From: Candidatus Polarisedimenticolaceae bacterium
Lineage (GTDB): Bacteria; Acidobacteriota; Polarisedimenticolia; Polarisedimenticolales; DASRJG01
Length of the DNA stretch: 64,000 nt
Direction of reading: 5' to 3'
Assembly: GCA_036275915.1 (NCBI GenBank)
Contig: DASUCV010000009.1
Span: forward strand, 287,198-351,197
The position numbers were made by a program, and so were the translations under genes. The notes under the pieces were generated by a model. The model worked only from the letters and a program-made list of their open reading frames with translations, searched no databases and was not told the origin of the DNA. This document shows positions 19,180 to 24,629 of the stretch, piece by piece; the first letter of the stretch is position 1; each line of letters begins with the position of its first letter.

Positions 19180-19221
19180 TGGTGCCGGAGGCTGGGCTCG
19201 AACCTGCACTCCCTTGCGGGA
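19180..19221. repeat. Left copy of tRNA-Leu 3' end (attL-like direct repeat)
   Basis: These 42 bases match the 3' end of the tRNA-Leu gene (24544-24585) with one mismatch (T for A at 19205). They cover the CCA end, acceptor strand, T-arm and part of the variable arm. No D-arm or anticodon arm follows, so this is not a tRNA gene. Such partial copies arise when an element integrates into a tRNA 3' end. Confidence 0.82.
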
Positions 19222-19261
19222 GCCCTTGCCGGCCCGATCCCTCGTTCCGTCGGGAGGACCG

Positions 19262-20538
19262 ATGGCCGATAGTCTCGTTCGCCAGCAATCCGCTCTACGC
19301 ACGGCGCTCGCCGGACTGATCGGCAACGTGCTGGAATGGTTCGACTTCGCGGTCTTCGGCTACTTTGCCAGCGACATAGGTCATCAGTTCTTTCCAAGCT
19401 CCAGCCCGACGCTGCAGCATCTCTTGACGTACGGCACCTTCGCGATCGGGTTCTTCGCGCGTCCGGTCGGCGGGCTGGTCCTCGGCCGCATCGGCGATCG
19501 CATAGGCCGCAAAGCGTCCTCAGTCTCTCGATTGCTCTGATGGGGGGGGCGACGCTGATGCTCGGCATGTTGCCGACGTACGACCAGATCGGTCTGGCCG
19601 CGCCGCTCCTCTTGCTGCTGATTCGCTTGATTCAAGGCTTCTCGCTCGGAGGCGAATTCACCGGCTCGATGGTCTACACCACGGAAGGGTCGTCGCCTTT
19701 GAAGCGCGGCCTCGTGAGCAGCTCTACGGCGGCCGGCACGACGATCGGCTTCATCCTGGGATCGGGCGCGGCGTGGCTCGTAAACGCCACGCTGACGCCG
19801 GATCAGGTGACGACCATCGGCTGGCGCATTCCCCTCATCGGGAGCGTCGTGTTCCTTGTGGCGGGCTACTTCCTGCGACGCGGGATTCATGAAACCGAGG
19901 AGGGCCTCAAGGCCGCCGCCGCGCGTCCGCCCTTGTGGTCGTCGCTCGCGTCTGACATCAAGCCGATCATCCAGTGCTTCGGAATCGTCGCCATGACCAA
20001 CGCCGCCTACTACGTGACTTTCACGTTTGCGGTGGAGCGGCGGAAGAGCCTGGCGAGCGATTCGACGGCTGCGGACTTCCTGCTGGCCAATACGCTGACG
20101 CTGCTCGTCGTGCTCCTTGCGAAACCGCTCGGCGGATGGCTCTCCGACAAGACCGGCCGGAGGCGACTGATGATCGCGATCACGCTCGTCGAGATGGCGA
20201 TGATGTTTCCCGCGTTGCACATGATGATGTACGGCACGACCCGGTCGTTCATCCTCGGCCAGATCCTTGTCGCGATGCCGATCGGCATGGCCCTTGGCTT
20301 GCAGGGCGCCATGGTGGTCGAGATCTTTCCGCTGCGCACGCGCGTGACGTCGATGAGCTTTGCGTACAGCCTGACGCTGGCGCTCTCTGGTGGCATCGCT
20401 CCGTTCATCGCGTCGTGGCTGATCGACACCACGGGCAATCTCATGCTGCCGGCGTACTTCATCCTGTTCTACGGAGCTGTCGGCCTCGCGATCATGTGGC
20501 CAATGAGCGAGACCAACACGCGGCGGCTCGACGAATAA
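19262..20538 (+). pseudogene. MFS metabolite:H+ symporter family transporter, frameshifted
   Basis: The product matches the MHS group of MFS transporters (relatives of ProP, ShiA, KgtP): GNVLEWFDFAVFGYFASDIG, then GRIGDRIGRK, LLIRLIQGFSLGGEFTGSMV and RRLMIAITLVEMAMM. Translation from ATG 19262 (GGGAGG at 19252-19257) stops early after about 93 residues. The remainder continues in the next frame from GTC at 19516 to the stop at 20538. Restoring one base near 19514-19515 rejoins GRK-A-VLSLSIALM. This is either a real one-base deletion in a decaying island gene or an assembly error; I cannot tell which. Confidence 0.88.
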
Positions 20539-20565
20539 CCACCCGCGGGGGATTTCTGAACCGTC

Positions 20566-20586
20566 GGTGCCGGAGGCTGGGCTCGA
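20566..20586. repeat. Middle, degenerate copy of the tRNA-Leu 3' end
   Basis: Twenty-one bases identical to the tRNA-Leu 3' end (24545-24565). After that the match breaks down, apart from GCACTCC a few bases later. It separates the frameshifted transporter from the CadC-type operon, as expected if two segments integrated one after the other at the same tRNA. Confidence 0.72.
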
Positions 20587-20636
20587 CTTCGCACTCCGTA
20601 GTGGCTGCCGCTCACGACCCACCGTATCATTCAAAT

Positions 20637-21032
20637 ATGCGTGCGAATAAACGAACGACGGAATCCCTGCGGATCCACACGCCCGCCGCGCGCTGCGACA
20701 TCCCCTGTTTCAACGCCCGGCTGGTAGCACGCAAGCGCTCCGAGACGCCGGGTCCGGAACGGCTGCGGACCGTTGAGACGCTGTTCGCTGCCCTCGCGGA
20801 TGGCGTCCGGCTCAAGATCGTGCATGCCCTCGCGGACGGTGGGGAATTGTGCGTCTGCGACGTCGCCCACGTCACGGGAAACAGCATCTCCGCCGCCTCG
20901 CACCATCTTCGCAAGCTGCGCGACCTCGGCATCCTCAAGTACCGAAACGATGGCAAGATGGCCTACTACTCGCTGCAGGACATCACGGCAAGGAAGCTCC
21001 TCGCGGTTGCTCTCGCGGGGGTCCCAGGATGA
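20637..21032 (+). CDS. CadC-like ArsR/SmtB metal-responsive repressor
   Basis: A 131-residue winged-helix repressor. It keeps both cysteine pairs that bind Cd/Pb in S. aureus CadC: an N-terminal CDIPCFN (CadC has CEIFCYD) and ELCVCDVAHV in the recognition region. The helix-turn-helix is GNSISAASHHLRKLRDLGIL, followed by NDGKMAYYSL. It should release DNA on binding a thiophilic metal such as Cd, Pb or a related ion. TATCAT at 20625-20630 is a -10 element whose start point would fall at or near the ATG, and no Shine-Dalgarno is visible, so a leaderless mRNA is likely. An ATTCAAATA half-site (20629-20637), like those in cad/ars operators, overlaps the start. Confidence 0.9.
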   Translation: MRANKRTTESLRIHTPAARCDIPCFNARLVARKRSETPGPERLRTVETLFAALADGVRLKIVHALADGGELCVCDVAHVTGNSISAASHHLRKLRDLGILKYRNDGKMAYYSLQDITARKLLAVALAGVPG

Positions 21033-22180
21033 GCGACGCGCTGACGATCGTCCGCGAACAGATCGGAATCGCTTTGGCGACGCCGAAGTGCTGGAAATGC
21101 GGATGCCTGCACGATACCGTCGCGTCGATTGCAACTTCGCCTGCGGCAGGCGATCTGGGATCGGTTCTCGCTACTTCCCGCGCTGCCTTTCAACCCCGAG
21201 CGTACGATTGCCTGGGGTGTGCGACCTGCTTTCCCGCGATTGCGACGAACGCAATGGCCGACGCGTATCCGGGGTTCGCCGACGGCCTTTCGATCTGCCC
21301 GACCGACGAGGCTCGTCCCCGGGTTGGGTGGCCGCCGTTCCCAGGCGACTACCGCACGCAGGCTTTCATGGCTCCCGTTGCCGTCTGCACGCTCAATTCC
21401 CCCGAGCTCACCGACGCGCTCATCGAGGGTTCCCCGGTGGGTTTGGCGATTACCGGGACGATGCGTACGGAGAACCTGGGCATCGAACGGCTCGTCCACA
21501 ACGTGTTGGCGAACCCGAACATCCGATTTCTCGTCGTTTGTGGTGCAGACACCGAGGGGTCGATCGGACACCTTCCGGGTCGCTCGCTTGCGGCACTCCA
21601 TCGCAATGGGATCGACGACCGTTGCCGCATCATCGACGCGCCAGGACGTCGGCCTGTGCTCAAGAACTTAGAACCTTCGCTGGTCGATGCCTTCCGGCGA
21701 CGAATCGAGATCGTCGACCTGATTGGCGAGTCTGATGTTGCGTCGATCGAGAACGCGGTCGCGCGCTGCGCGGAACGGGACCCAGGTCCCTCTGAACCTC
21801 TCGATCTGTCGACGGCAGTACCGATCGTCGCGGCGAGCGAGCCGGATCGGCTCGTGCTCGACCCCGCGGGTTACGTTGTCATCCACGGTGACGCGCGCAC
21901 GCAAGCGCTGGTCGCCGAGCACTACACGAACCAGGGTGTTCTCGACCTGATCGTAGATGGTGCTACCCCCGCGCGCGTGATGGCCGCACTGATCGAACGT
22001 GGACTTGTGACTCGGCTCGACCACGCTGCCTATCTCGGGCAGGAGCTTGCGCGAGCGGAAAGGGCACTGCGGGACGGTGCGCGGTACGTGCAGGACAAGG
22101 CCGCTGGGCGCGCGCCCGCACCGCCAGTGGCCGAAGGATCATGCGGCTGCGCAGGGTCGTGCGCCGAGGACCGTCCTTGA
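21029..22180 (+). CDS. MtrA-like corrinoid-domain protein fused to DUF4346, with Cys-rich ends
   Basis: A 383-residue protein. The N-terminus is Cys-rich (TPKCWKCGCLHDT, YDCLGCATCFPA), like Fe-S or metal-binding ferredoxin-type motifs. The middle (about 110-260) matches subunit A of tetrahydromethanopterin S-methyltransferase, MtrA, a corrinoid methyl carrier: ENLGIERLVHNVLANPNIRF, CGADTEGSIGHLPGRSLAAL, HRNGIDDRCRI and RIEIVDLIGE. The next 90 residues match DUF4346: LDPAGYVVIHGD, AEHYTNQGVLDLIVDG and RLDHAAYLGQELARAE. The tail is GSCGCAGSCAED. The rest of the archaeal Mtr complex is absent. It is coupled to the repressor by ATGA. A role in methyl or metal transfer is inferred from context. 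Confidence 0.8.
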   Translation: MSDALTIVREQIGIALATPKCWKCGCLHDTVASIATSPAAGDLGSVLATSRAAFQPRAYDCLGCATCFPAIATNAMADAYPGFADGLSICPTDEARPRVGWPPFPGDYRTQAFMAPVAVCTLNSPELTDALIEGSPVGLAITGTMRTENLGIERLVHNVLANPNIRFLVVCGADTEGSIGHLPGRSLAALHRNGIDDRCRIIDAPGRRPVLKNLEPSLVDAFRRRIEIVDLIGESDVASIENAVARCAERDPGPSEPLDLSTAVPIVAASEPDRLVLDPAGYVVIHGDARTQALVAEHYTNQGVLDLIVDGATPARVMAALIERGLVTRLDHAAYLGQELARAERALRDGARYVQDKAAGRAPAPPVAEGSCGCAGSCAEDRP

Positions 22181-22581
22181 AGACGAATTGGCCCGCGGTC
22201 GCGGGGGTTGGCGCACTCGCTCTCGGGCTGATCGCCTACAAGGGAACGCGCGCTCCCCTTCCGAACCCCGGGTCGAGTTCGACGTCCACCGCCGCGCCGG
22301 TAGTCGTGCTGATCGCTGACCCGGCTGAGGCCGAGGAATCCTGCGGCTGCGGCGAAATCATTCGCGCCGTCCGCGCCGCCGCCGCCAAGGGTGTATCAAC
22401 GCGCGAGGTCGCTCCGGGCGCCGATCTAGGACTTGAGAAGCGCTACGGGGTGAAGGTCTCGCCGACGGTACTGTTCATCGGGACCGACGGAACGGTGCGC
22501 GCCCGCCACGAGGGCGAGGACGCCGACACGGTCGACGCGATTCACCAAGATCTCGATCGCGCTCTTGCGGGACGACCGTGA
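22177..22581 (+). CDS. Membrane-anchored thioredoxin-fold protein
   Basis: A 134-residue protein with an N-terminal anchor or signal (WPAVAGVGALALGLIAYKG). The thioredoxin-like fold follows: a beta strand VVVLIADP, then SCGCGEII with a CxC pair instead of the usual CxxC, and the cis-Pro loop YGVKVSPTVLFIGTDG. It probably works outside the cytoplasmic membrane and receives electrons from the CcdA-like protein downstream. The start is a TTG (22177) overlapping the previous stop as TTGA. An upstream ATG at 22141 lies inside the MtrA-like gene and would add a poor N-terminus. Confidence 0.78.
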   Translation: MKTNWPAVAGVGALALGLIAYKGTRAPLPNPGSSSTSTAAPVVVLIADPAEAEESCGCGEIIRAVRAAAAKGVSTREVAPGADLGLEKRYGVKVSPTVLFIGTDGTVRARHEGEDADTVDAIHQDLDRALAGRP

Positions 22582-23258
22582 TCGGAGCACTCGACGACGC
22601 GCTACGCGCGGCTGTCGCAGGAGGCACGTTCGCCGCGCTGCCTCTGTCACTTGCAGCCGGGCTGGCATCGAGCGTCTCGCCATGTTGCGTCGCGTTGTAT
22701 CCCGCCGCCGCGGCGACATGCTGCGTGACGAGGGAGACTCGACCGATTCTCGCCATCCGCACGTCCGTTGCGTTTGTCTTGGGGATCGCGGTTGCGACAT
22801 CGATCTTGGGCGTGATCGCCGCGCTCGCAGGTCGCGCGCTTGTCGGCGCTGGGCCGTGGGCGTCGTACGCGCTCGCGGTGATCCCTCTGGTGCTTGGCCT
22901 TCATTTCCTCGGCTGGCTTTCTCTCCCGGCCGTCGTGACGACGGTTCGCGCGCCGGATTCGTCGCGCTGGGGAGGGGCGTTCGTCAGCGGGCTGCTCCTG
23001 TCGGTCGTGTTCATTCCTTGCGGCACGCCGATGCTTGCGGCGCTCATGTCATTCGCCGCGGTGCGTGGCAGCATCACATTCGGTGCCGGCCTTCTCTTCC
23101 TCTACGGGCTCGGCGCCGGCCTTCCAATCCTACCGATGGGGGCGTTGACCTCGGTCGCAGCGGGCAAGCTGGCGCAACGCGGCTGGCGTACGACGATCGA
23201 TCGGATAACGGGAACATGCCTGCTCGCGCTCGAGATGTACTTGATCTGGGCTGCGTGA
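22578..23258 (+). CDS. CcdA/DsbD-like transmembrane electron transporter
   Basis: A 226-residue protein with six membrane helices. It carries the paired motifs of the CcdA family: SLAAGLASSVSPCCVALYPA near the N-terminus and SGLLLSVVFIPCGTPMLAAL in the middle. The two Cys in SPC and IPC pass reducing power from cytoplasmic thioredoxin to an outside partner; the neighbouring CxC thioredoxin-fold protein is the obvious acceptor. GTG at 22578 overlaps the previous stop (GTGA). The pairing with a metal repressor points to metal or metalloid chemistry rather than cytochrome c maturation; no other maturation genes are near. Confidence 0.88.
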   Translation: MIGALDDALRAAVAGGTFAALPLSLAAGLASSVSPCCVALYPAAAATCCVTRETRPILAIRTSVAFVLGIAVATSILGVIAALAGRALVGAGPWASYALAVIPLVLGLHFLGWLSLPAVVTTVRAPDSSRWGGAFVSGLLLSVVFIPCGTPMLAALMSFAAVRGSITFGAGLLFLYGLGAGLPILPMGALTSVAAGKLAQRGWRTTIDRITGTCLLALEMYLIWAA

Positions 23259-24532
23259 CGGCGCCGGAACACAGGATCTCGACGTTGACTCAAACGGAAT
23301 CACGCACCCCGGTTGTGGCTGAAGATCGTTCGCCCCGGACGGCGGGCTGGCTCAACCGCACGACTGTCGGGATCACGTTGGCCAGCTTATTCTCGGACGT
23401 ATCCCACGAGCTCGGGACAGCGGTCCTTCCCACCGTCCTGCTCTCGATCGGCGCGGGTCCGGCGGCGCTCGGCATTGTGGAAGGCGTTGCGGACGGGATC
23501 TCGTCGATCGCCAAGCTCTGGGGCGGCGTCATGACCGACAGGGTTGTCCGCCGCAAGCCACTGACTTCGGTGGGCTACCTCGTGACGGCCCTCGGCATGG
23601 CCGCGATCGGACTCTGCACGTCGGCCTGGCAGGTACTCGTGTGCCGCGTGTCGGCATGGATCGGACGTGGCAGCCGGTCGGCACCGCGCGACTTCCTGAT
23701 GGCGCAGGCCGTGCGACCCGAGGCGAGAGGCAGGGCTTTCGGCATGGAGCGCGCCGGCGATGCGCTTGGCGCCGTCGTCGGCCCGCTGCTCGCTCTCGGT
23801 CTGCTCAGCGTTGGGTTTAGACCGCAAGAGATCGTGATTGGTTCGCTGCTTCCGGGGCTCCTGGCGTTCCTAGCGATCGCCTTCCTCGTGGTGGAGCAAC
23901 GACGGCCGGCGACTGGGTCGGCCTTGGGGATCCGCGAGAGCCTCGCAGGAACCGGCGCCCCGTTCAGGCGGTATCTCGGCGGAATCTTGCTCTTCGGCTG
24001 TGGGGACTTCTCGCGCACGCTGCTGATCCTCTACGCGACGCAGCACGTCTCGGGCGCACTCTTCTCGATCGAGGGCGCGGCACTGGCAATCAGCTTCTAC
24101 GCGCTACACAACGCGGTGAGTGCTCTCGCGGCATTTCCGCTCGGGGTGCTCGGAGACCGCGTCGGCCACAGGACGGTGATCGTTTCCGGTTACATCATCG
24201 CCGCAGCGACCACGGCCGGTTTTGGTCTTGCGTCGCCGACTCCGGCCAACCTGGCGATCCTCTTCGTCGCTTCCGGGCTCGCGATAGCGTGTGAGGAGGT
24301 CGCCGAGAAAGCGTACGCCGTCGATTTACTCCCTCATCACACGCGAGGGACGGGACTCGGACTGTTGGCCGCCGTCAACGGCGTCGGAGACATGATCTCG
24401 AGCGCGATGGTCGGCATCCTCTGGGCAACCTTCCCTTCGTCACCCGCCGTCGGGTTCCTCGCCGCCGCAGGGCTCCAGGTTGCGGGAGCCACTGTCGTTG
24501 CCGCGGGACGGCGCGGTGTTGGCGATAGTTGA
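23255..24532 (+). CDS. MFS transporter, likely efflux component of the island operon
   Basis: A 425-residue major facilitator protein with 12 predicted helices. Visible motifs include SLFSDVSHELGTAVLPTVLL, the loop 2-3 motif GGVMTDRVVRRKPL and the second-half equivalent PLGVLGDRVGHRTVIVSGYI. A late VNGVGDMISSAMVGILW resembles MFS permeases encoded in metal-resistance loci. GTG at 23255 overlaps the ccdA-like stop (GTGA). Last in a fully coupled five-gene operon under a CadC-like repressor, it probably exports the final product (inference). The stop lies 11 bases before the tRNA-Leu gene. Confidence 0.85.
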   Translation: MTAPEHRISTLTQTESRTPVVAEDRSPRTAGWLNRTTVGITLASLFSDVSHELGTAVLPTVLLSIGAGPAALGIVEGVADGISSIAKLWGGVMTDRVVRRKPLTSVGYLVTALGMAAIGLCTSAWQVLVCRVSAWIGRGSRSAPRDFLMAQAVRPEARGRAFGMERAGDALGAVVGPLLALGLLSVGFRPQEIVIGSLLPGLLAFLAIAFLVVEQRRPATGSALGIRESLAGTGAPFRRYLGGILLFGCGDFSRTLLILYATQHVSGALFSIEGAALAISFYALHNAVSALAAFPLGVLGDRVGHRTVIVSGYIIAAATTAGFGLASPTPANLAILFVASGLAIACEEVAEKAYAVDLLPHHTRGTGLGLLAAVNGVGDMISSAMVGILWATFPSSPAVGFLAAAGLQVAGATVVAAGRRGVGDS

Positions 24533-24543
24533 CACCGTCGCGC

Positions 24544-24629
24544 TGGTGCCGGAGGCTGGGCTCGAACCAGCACTCCCTTGCGGGAAGGGGATTTTAAGTC
24601 CCCTGCGTCTGCCATTCCGCCACTCCGGC
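24544..24629 (-). tRNA. tRNA-Leu (UAA anticodon)
   Basis: On the minus strand the 86 bases fold as a class II tRNA. The 5' end is GCCGGAGTGGCGGAATGGCA, the anticodon stem GGGGA/TCCCC holds the loop CTTAAAA with anticodon TAA, and a long variable arm follows (CTTCCCGCAAGGGAG). The T-arm has GGTTCGAGCC, and the acceptor strand CTCCGGC is followed by an A discriminator and CCA. Its 3' end is the probable integration site of the island to its left (see repeats at 19180 and 20566). Confidence 0.97.

Follow-up and report, generated by a model that had tools for sequence, protein, structure and literature searches.

What might a relative of MtrA, a subunit of the methyl-tetrahydromethanopterin:coenzyme M methyltransferase of methanogens, do in a bacterial operon that begins with a CadC-like repressor? 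The question is raised by five genes in a 64,000-nucleotide stretch of contig DASUCV010000009.1 of Candidatus Polarisedimenticolaceae bacterium (hereafter, the window), the second of which encodes a 383-residue protein, Cys6-MtrA-DUF4346, that joins a six-cysteine N-terminal domain, an MtrA corrinoid domain and a DUF4346 domain. Our preferred reading, held tentatively and at somewhat less than an even chance, is that the operon was acquired horizontally as a detoxification cassette under ArsR control, with a self-contained corrinoid methyltransferase at its core that would act on a thiophilic metal or organometal. We found no description of this system in the literature searched (DUF4346; MtrA with ArsR; MtrA with metals), the coverage of which is incomplete; this agrees with the initial annotation of the window, which was made from the sequence alone and knew of no described system with such a gene set.

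An MtrA-DUF4346 protein under a CadC-like repressor

The initial annotation described five genes joined by four-base overlaps, and all five open reading frames (ORFs) and their junctions, read from the letters as ATGA, TTGA, GTGA and GTGA, were confirmed. The first gene encodes a repressor that matches the ArsR family (HTH_5, 4.5e-14), has CadC (1u2w, 5.7e-19) as its best solved relative in a PDB search and, as proposed, carries both CadC-type cysteine pairs, i.e. the N-terminal pair C20/C24 and the pair C72/C74 (CVC within the ELCVCD helix).

Judged from profile and structure-database matches, the MtrA homology of the 383-residue protein is genuine. The two domains first assigned to it by eye both returned profile matches, i.e. 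MtrA (PF04208) with 1e-41 and 142.9 bits against a cut-off of 25 over residues 97-255, and DUF4346 (PF14251) with 2.8e-20 over residues 277-356. Moreover, its best relatives in the PDB were methanogen MtrA proteins (6e-38), and the NCBIfam model NF002128 ('tetrahydromethanopterin S-methyltransferase subunit A', 390 residues) matched residues 3-378 but, at 466 bits, did not reach its cut-off of 568. In methanogen MtrA, His84 is the cobalt ligand and is hydrogen-bonded to Glu54, and Asn55 lies close to the ring (PMC4915002). The TEN/GH motif residues are kept in the window protein, and the equivalents H181, E148 and N149 were invariant in an alignment of 15 distinct homologs, H181 being the plausible corrinoid ligand. 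In total, the predicted corrinoid competence of the MtrA domain is well supported.

The other Mtr subunits, which had been noted as missing from the window, were not recovered further afield in the case of MtrH (PF02007), for which there was no match anywhere in the genome while methanogen controls were positive; nor does the genome encode a second MtrA. A methanogenesis-like Mtr complex was therefore rejected. The genome encodes a cobalamin-dependent MetH that seems intact and has both its B12-binding and activation domains, and a corrinoid is thus probably available to the operon protein.

In another bacterium of the window's phylum (G006), MtrA, MtrH, a MetE-core/DUF4346 fusion and methylenetetrahydrofolate reductase (MTHFR) are encoded in one cluster (L032, 4663-8301) that, from its domains, resembles a core methionine synthase of the corrinoid-dependent kind. 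MtrA together with DUF4346 is thus also found where another enzyme is the methyl acceptor, and it has been predicted that MtrA gives methyl groups to the core methionine synthase MesA (PMC7857596). Both observations would suit an alternative in which the window protein, induced by metal, would carry methyl groups and so support one-carbon and methionine metabolism when zinc-thiolate enzymes such as MetE and MetH are poisoned, the metal itself being left untouched. However, neither a core methionine synthase nor MtrH was seen at the metal-linked loci described below, the host genome lacks MtrH yet has its intact MetH, and Cys-rich tails and repeats would be unnecessary for such a role. We regard this alternative as distinctly unlikely.

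For DUF4346, a PDB profile search found no credible relative. Many genomes of the phylum of G396 (loci L043-L070) encode proteins of ~500 residues whose similarity to the query family lies mainly in this domain, and NCBIfam ties such architectures to the dihydropteroate-synthase-like family TIGR00284.

The Cys-rich N-terminus and the CxCxxxC tail noted at the outset are both present, but the tail is confined to part of the family. The N-terminal 95 residues hold C21, C24, C26, C61, C64 and C67, all of which are invariant in the 15 homologs. Profile searches with this domain gave no Pfam family and no credible PDB relative; matches to PsaC and similar PDB entries were set aside because the CxxCxxC pattern was their sole basis, and the likeness to 4Fe-4S (ferredoxin) or soft-metal sites is weak and at the level of the motif only. 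The cysteine additions vary by lineage: related sequences have Cys tails other than the CxCxxxC of the window, and the Planococcus homologs have three ACGCDxxxC-like repeats between the N-terminal and MtrA domains. A metal substrate would lead one to expect such an apparent repeated gain of soft-metal ligands, although the pattern does not prove one. A stand-alone, 115-residue equivalent of the six-cysteine domain is encoded at L016 (1468-1815) and L073 (7311-7658), where it adjoins genes resembling those for 2-oxoacid:ferredoxin oxidoreductases.

The six invariant cysteines and the variable tails could also be read without methyl chemistry, i.e. cob(I)/cob(II)alamin, with the six-cysteine domain (possibly an Fe-S domain) as its electron source, would reduce a metal or metalloid, or the cysteine sites would chelate it. 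The CLGCxxC motif, which weakly and locally resembles 4Fe-4S motifs, and the thioredoxin-like and CcdA proteins of the operon, which suggest a supply of thiol electrons, would fit. Against this, chelation alone would not call for the observed conservation of DUF4346 and of all methyl-transfer ligands of MtrA, and the thioredoxin-like and CcdA genes accompany MtrA at only a third of the 15 loci. This explanation appears improbable.

The three downstream genes were initially taken to encode a CxC thioredoxin, CcdA and an exporter of the major facilitator superfamily (MFS). The second assignment held without change, with a match to DsbD_TM (PF02683, 6.5e-18) and both transmembrane PC motifs (PCC and PCGTP/PCATP) kept among homologs. 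The thioredoxin-like protein, of 134 residues, has no Pfam match above cut-off; its label is nevertheless fair because the homolog at L024 matches Pfam Thioredoxin (1.1e-5). It lacks a CxxC active site, and CxC, although present in the window, was rejected as a conserved trait, as the homologs share one cysteine only. Similarly, the last protein matches MFS_1 (4.2e-28), but MFS was rejected as part of a conserved system: no MFS homolog was found at the other loci. MFS would be only a putative exporter of a methylated product, as homologous loci without it carry inorganic-ion exporters.

Upstream, the motif TATCATT...ATGyGTGCGAAT, which covers the ArsR start codon, is common to the window, L001 and L002, and its L002 copy is a palindrome at 8/8 positions (9/10 with 10-bp arms). 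We infer that it is a putative -10 box with an operator. A scan with the sigma-70 consensus found no promoter.

Metal context and probable mobility of the family

The comparison, which drew on one scan of genome contigs, covered 15 distinct loci: the window, two contigs of metagenome-assembled genomes labelled Proteobacteria (L001 and L002), nine loci in genomes of the window's phylum, one in G485, a Paraburkholderia plasmid and Planococcus plasmids. ArsR genes lie within ~3 kb of the MtrA-family gene at 10 of them, across at least three phyla that include Proteobacteria, Bacillota (on plasmids) and the window's phylum. With a background of eight ArsR matches above cut-off in this 4.5-Mb genome, i.e. 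0.011 per 6 kb, ~0.16 such loci would be expected; the binomial chance is 5e-17, or ~1e-10 if the loci are roughly thinned to nine independent ones. More than one ArsR subtype is represented: the window, L001, L002 and L041 have the CadC-like form (C-x-IPC-F and ELCVCD), and other types occur elsewhere. Moreover, thioredoxin-like and CcdA genes follow MtrA at the window, L001, L002, L024 and L026, and in the first three the genes are packed in identical order. The gene association is thus not unique to this genome.

Metal transporters recur at these loci. Resistance-nodulation-division (RND) pumps of the CusA/CzcA type lie near the MtrA family at L002, L021, L023 and L024, a cation diffusion facilitator (CDF) exporter at L001, and a heavy-metal P-type ATPase together with a heavy-metal-associated (HMA) protein on the Planococcus plasmids; at L041, MerC is encoded between ArsR and MtrA. 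Altogether, a metal role of the operon, as read from gene context, is well supported. An alternative is a housekeeping role of MtrA-DUF4346 in methyl transfer, the gene being merely carried by metal-resistance islands or lying there by chance. The patchy distribution, the mobile context and the solitary state of some copies would agree with it; however, the tight packing in one order at three loci, the presence of differing ArsR subtypes and exporters beside the gene, and the Cys-rich repeat added in Planococcus are hard to square with a passenger, and we consider it very improbable.

Several neighbours of these loci were recorded in their own right. The P-type ATPase of the Planococcus plasmids (L037, 1336-3273; L036, 11964-13523) has CSC where the transmembrane motif is usually CPC. 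At L001, a cluster of aquaporin-like, ArsC-like, ArsI/CadI and ArsR genes (83-2140) lies ~3 kb from the operon, which suggests a multi-metal resistance island. An undescribed membrane protein, marked by a GCCGSP motif and a Cys-rich tail and possibly a metal transporter, adjoins MtrA-DUF4346 at L022 (6720-7262), L027 (1489-1974) and L029 (2976-3362); it had no Pfam match in L022 and L027, where it was scanned. The MTHFR gene beside the operon at L022 was given no weight as a methyl-donor link because it is truncated and covers ~100 of 287 profile positions. Viral contigs and phages contained no relatives.

The span first given for the operon, 20637-24532, holds for its ORFs, but the feature reaches further, as repeats of the tRNA-Leu 3' end flank it (Table 1). 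The exact 21-mer of the tRNA-Leu(TAA) 3' end is present at 20566, at 19181 and in the tRNA but at no other place in the 4.5-Mb genome; 0.01 copies would be expected in the window by chance. The copies bound two units in tandem, one of 3,979 bp (20566-24544) that holds exactly the operon and one of 1,385 bp (19181-20565). The operon therefore looks like a 4-kb mobile cassette integrated at tRNA-Leu(TAA). Relatives also have tRNA-Leu fragments in series (contig 59 of G177, L110; contig 12 of G319, L111), with five on one contig of G177. In G177 (L113), tRNA-Leu(TAA) adjoins a gene for a tyrosine integrase, which is found next to a tRNA-Leu fragment as well. There is no integrase within the cassette, and this genome encodes only distant relatives of the G177 integrase.

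The 383-residue protein is nearer to Proteobacteria homologs (best 51%) than to most of those of its own phylum, with moderate tree support for this affinity (83/91), and its family is absent from the nine other sampled genomes of the host order. The GC content at third codon positions is slightly lower in the operon than in adjacent genes. Horizontal acquisition of the operon is likely on these grounds, and a methanogenesis-type corrinoid module would then move between bacteria on plasmids and in small tRNA-integrated cassettes. The smaller unit contains a lone MFS gene (19214-20538) with a frameshift near 19530, either a pseudogene or an assembly error.

Table 1. Coordinates of the operon, its protein domains and the flanking repeats in the window
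Feature	Position	Strand	Basis or remark
Operon, five ORFs	20637-24532	+	4-base overlap at every gene junction
ArsR/SmtB repressor, CadC-like	20637..21032	+	Pfam, Cys pairs, PDB match
Cys6-MtrA-DUF4346 protein, 383 residues, predicted corrinoid methyltransferase	21029..22180	+	Pfam, NCBIfam, PDB, alignment
N-terminal six-Cys domain (KCxxCxC ... CLGCxxC)	21080..21235	+	Without Pfam or PDB relative
MtrA corrinoid-binding domain	21317..21793	+	Ligand H181 (= His84), E148 (= Glu54), N149 (= Asn55)
DUF4346 domain (PF14251, PterinBD-DUF4346)	21857..22096	+	EHY and HAAY-x-G-x-EL conserved
C-terminal CxCxxxC tail (C372, C374, C378)	22142..22162	+	Part of family only
Thioredoxin-fold protein, membrane-anchored, TTG start	22177..22581	+	Homolog match; SPT cis-Pro motif and one Cys conserved
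CcdA/DsbD-type transmembrane electron carrier	22578..23258	+	PF02683; PCC (transmembrane segment 1) and PCGTP motifs
MFS transporter	23255..24532	+	Pfam MFS_1; only in window version of operon
tRNA-Leu(TAA), intact, presumed integration site, right cassette edge	24544..24629	-	tRNA fragments and tyrosine integrase in relatives
att-like repeat, left edge of operon cassette	20566..20604	+	21-nt exact tRNA-Leu 3'-end copy; 82% over 39 nt
Outer tRNA-Leu(TAA) 3'-end copy, bounds adjacent 1.4-kb cassette	19180..19221	+	42 nt, 97.6%
Putative -10 box TATCAT and operator across ArsR start codon	20625..20652	+	Motif common to window, L001, L002

Candidate mechanism and direction of methyl transfer

In the detoxification mechanism that we favour, a soft metal ion (of the Cd/Pb/Bi/Hg type) or a metalloid would lift the CadC-like repressor off its operator, and the operon would be transcribed as a unit. 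Cys6-MtrA-DUF4346 is predicted to bind a corrinoid in the base-off/His-on state through H181; the toxic metal would be held by the N-terminal cysteine domain, the cysteine tail or both, and a methyl group would pass from the cobalt of the corrinoid to the metal or the other way. The six-cysteine domain and the tails may thereby stand in place of the acceptor enzyme seen in G006. With MtrH absent, the methyl donor would be S-adenosylmethionine (SAM) or a methyl-folate. The membrane-anchored thioredoxin-like protein and CcdA would feed in reducing equivalents, keeping the cysteine and metal-thiol sites reduced. Finally, a locally chosen exporter (MFS in the window; RND, CDF, a P-type ATPase or MerC elsewhere) would remove or handle the metal.

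We infer from the domains and their context that the 383-residue protein transfers methyl groups to or from a metal, and we consider transfer from cobalt to metal about twice as probable as demethylation. Recombinant MtrA of methanogens reportedly methylates several metalloids. For most metals beyond Hg and As (such as Pb, Cd, Bi, Sb and Sn), environmental methylation has no known genes or is put down to side reactions of methanogenesis. With its CadC-type sensor and neighbouring metal exporters, the bacterial relative of MtrA described here is a concrete candidate.

Several observations weigh against this mechanism. Most of the linked exporters (CzcA, CDF and the P-type ATPase) move inorganic ions, the operon has no dedicated methyl-donor enzyme, and several homologs are solitary, with neither ArsR nor exporters (L028, L035). 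In the homolog alignment, the MtrA meander GAIPF(Y/F)xEN is replaced by GKRPxLKN with an invariant RP, and the family is therefore a distinct branch of MtrA. An AlphaFold2 model of the 383-residue protein, built from three sequences, had a predicted local distance difference test (pLDDT) score of 45.8, too low for use. Finally, the N-terminal cysteine domain might be no metal site at all but an Fe-S centre for cobalt reduction.

As to the missing donor enzyme, HgcAB uses a corrinoid protein to methylate Hg with SAM as the donor and requires no MtrH-like subunit (PMC11588087); thus, the absence of MtrH is no obstacle to metal methylation. Inorganic-ion exporters would be expected equally with demethylation or with simple co-location in resistance islands.

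In the reverse direction, cob(I)alamin in the MtrA domain would demethylate an organometal or organometalloid; DUF4346 would hand the methyl group on to tetrahydrofolate, and the freed inorganic ion would go through the cysteine sites to an ordinary exporter. This route would account for the type of exporter, for a CadC-type sensor, as such sensors respond to inorganic ions, and for the Pfam label PterinBD on the C-terminal domain; moreover, the ArsI/CadI-type protein in the L001 neighbourhood is of the family to which the organoarsenical lyase ArsI belongs. Yet the MtrA family has no consistent link to an organometal lyase or to dedicated organometal uptake, methylated metals beyond Hg and As are rare, so that its wide distribution would be surprising, and the name of DUF4346 is the sole basis for pterin binding. 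Demethylation as the function of the operon seems unlikely.

Comparison with known systems

The window protein shares with methanogen MtrA a homologous corrinoid domain in which the equivalents of His84, Glu54 and Asn55 are kept. It differs from it in that no C-terminal membrane helix was seen, in its bacterial host without MtrH, in the additional six-cysteine and DUF4346 domains, in GKRPxLKN in place of GAIPFxEN and in its regulation by a metal sensor. The family name of NF002128 is inherited from methanogens and is silent on metals; a role in metal methyl transfer would explain a bacterial family that this NCBI model labels as a methanogenesis subunit.

Like the CadC/CadA and Czc/Cus resistance systems, the operon has a CadC-like repressor with both cysteine pairs, and homologous loci adjoin P-type ATPase, CDF and RND genes; in contrast, its core is a corrinoid protein with a thioredoxin-like protein and CcdA, not an exporter. 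MesA-type core methionine synthase clusters such as that of G006 similarly combine MtrA with DUF4346, whereas the window has no MetE-core acceptor, MtrH or MTHFR and has the six-cysteine domain instead. The Tso and SAO selenoprotein operons similarly feature an ArsR protein (TsoR), the DsbD-like TsoB and the thioredoxin-like SaoT, and SAO is described as organometallic (PMC13188914, a review); however, MtrA is mentioned for them neither in that review nor in the NCBIfam models examined, and the 383-residue protein contains no selenocysteine.

The closest functional parallel, if the methyl transfer proposed here is right, would be HgcAB, a metal methyltransferase that likewise pairs a corrinoid protein with a Cys-rich or Fe-S partner. 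The HgcA corrinoid domain is of the corrinoid iron-sulfur protein type with C93 as the ligand, whereas MtrA has its own mode of cobalamin binding (PMC4915002), and the window encodes one fused protein, soluble by sequence, and no HgcB; no HgcA or HgcB model was among the Pfam or NCBIfam matches of the five operon proteins. At only just under an even chance, we suggest that Cys6-MtrA-DUF4346 is a second, evolutionarily independent bacterial corrinoid system that makes or breaks metal-carbon bonds (with metals such as Cd, Pb, Bi or Hg), is induced by thiophilic metals and spread by plasmids and tRNA-integrated cassettes, and would have recruited a fold from methanogenesis.

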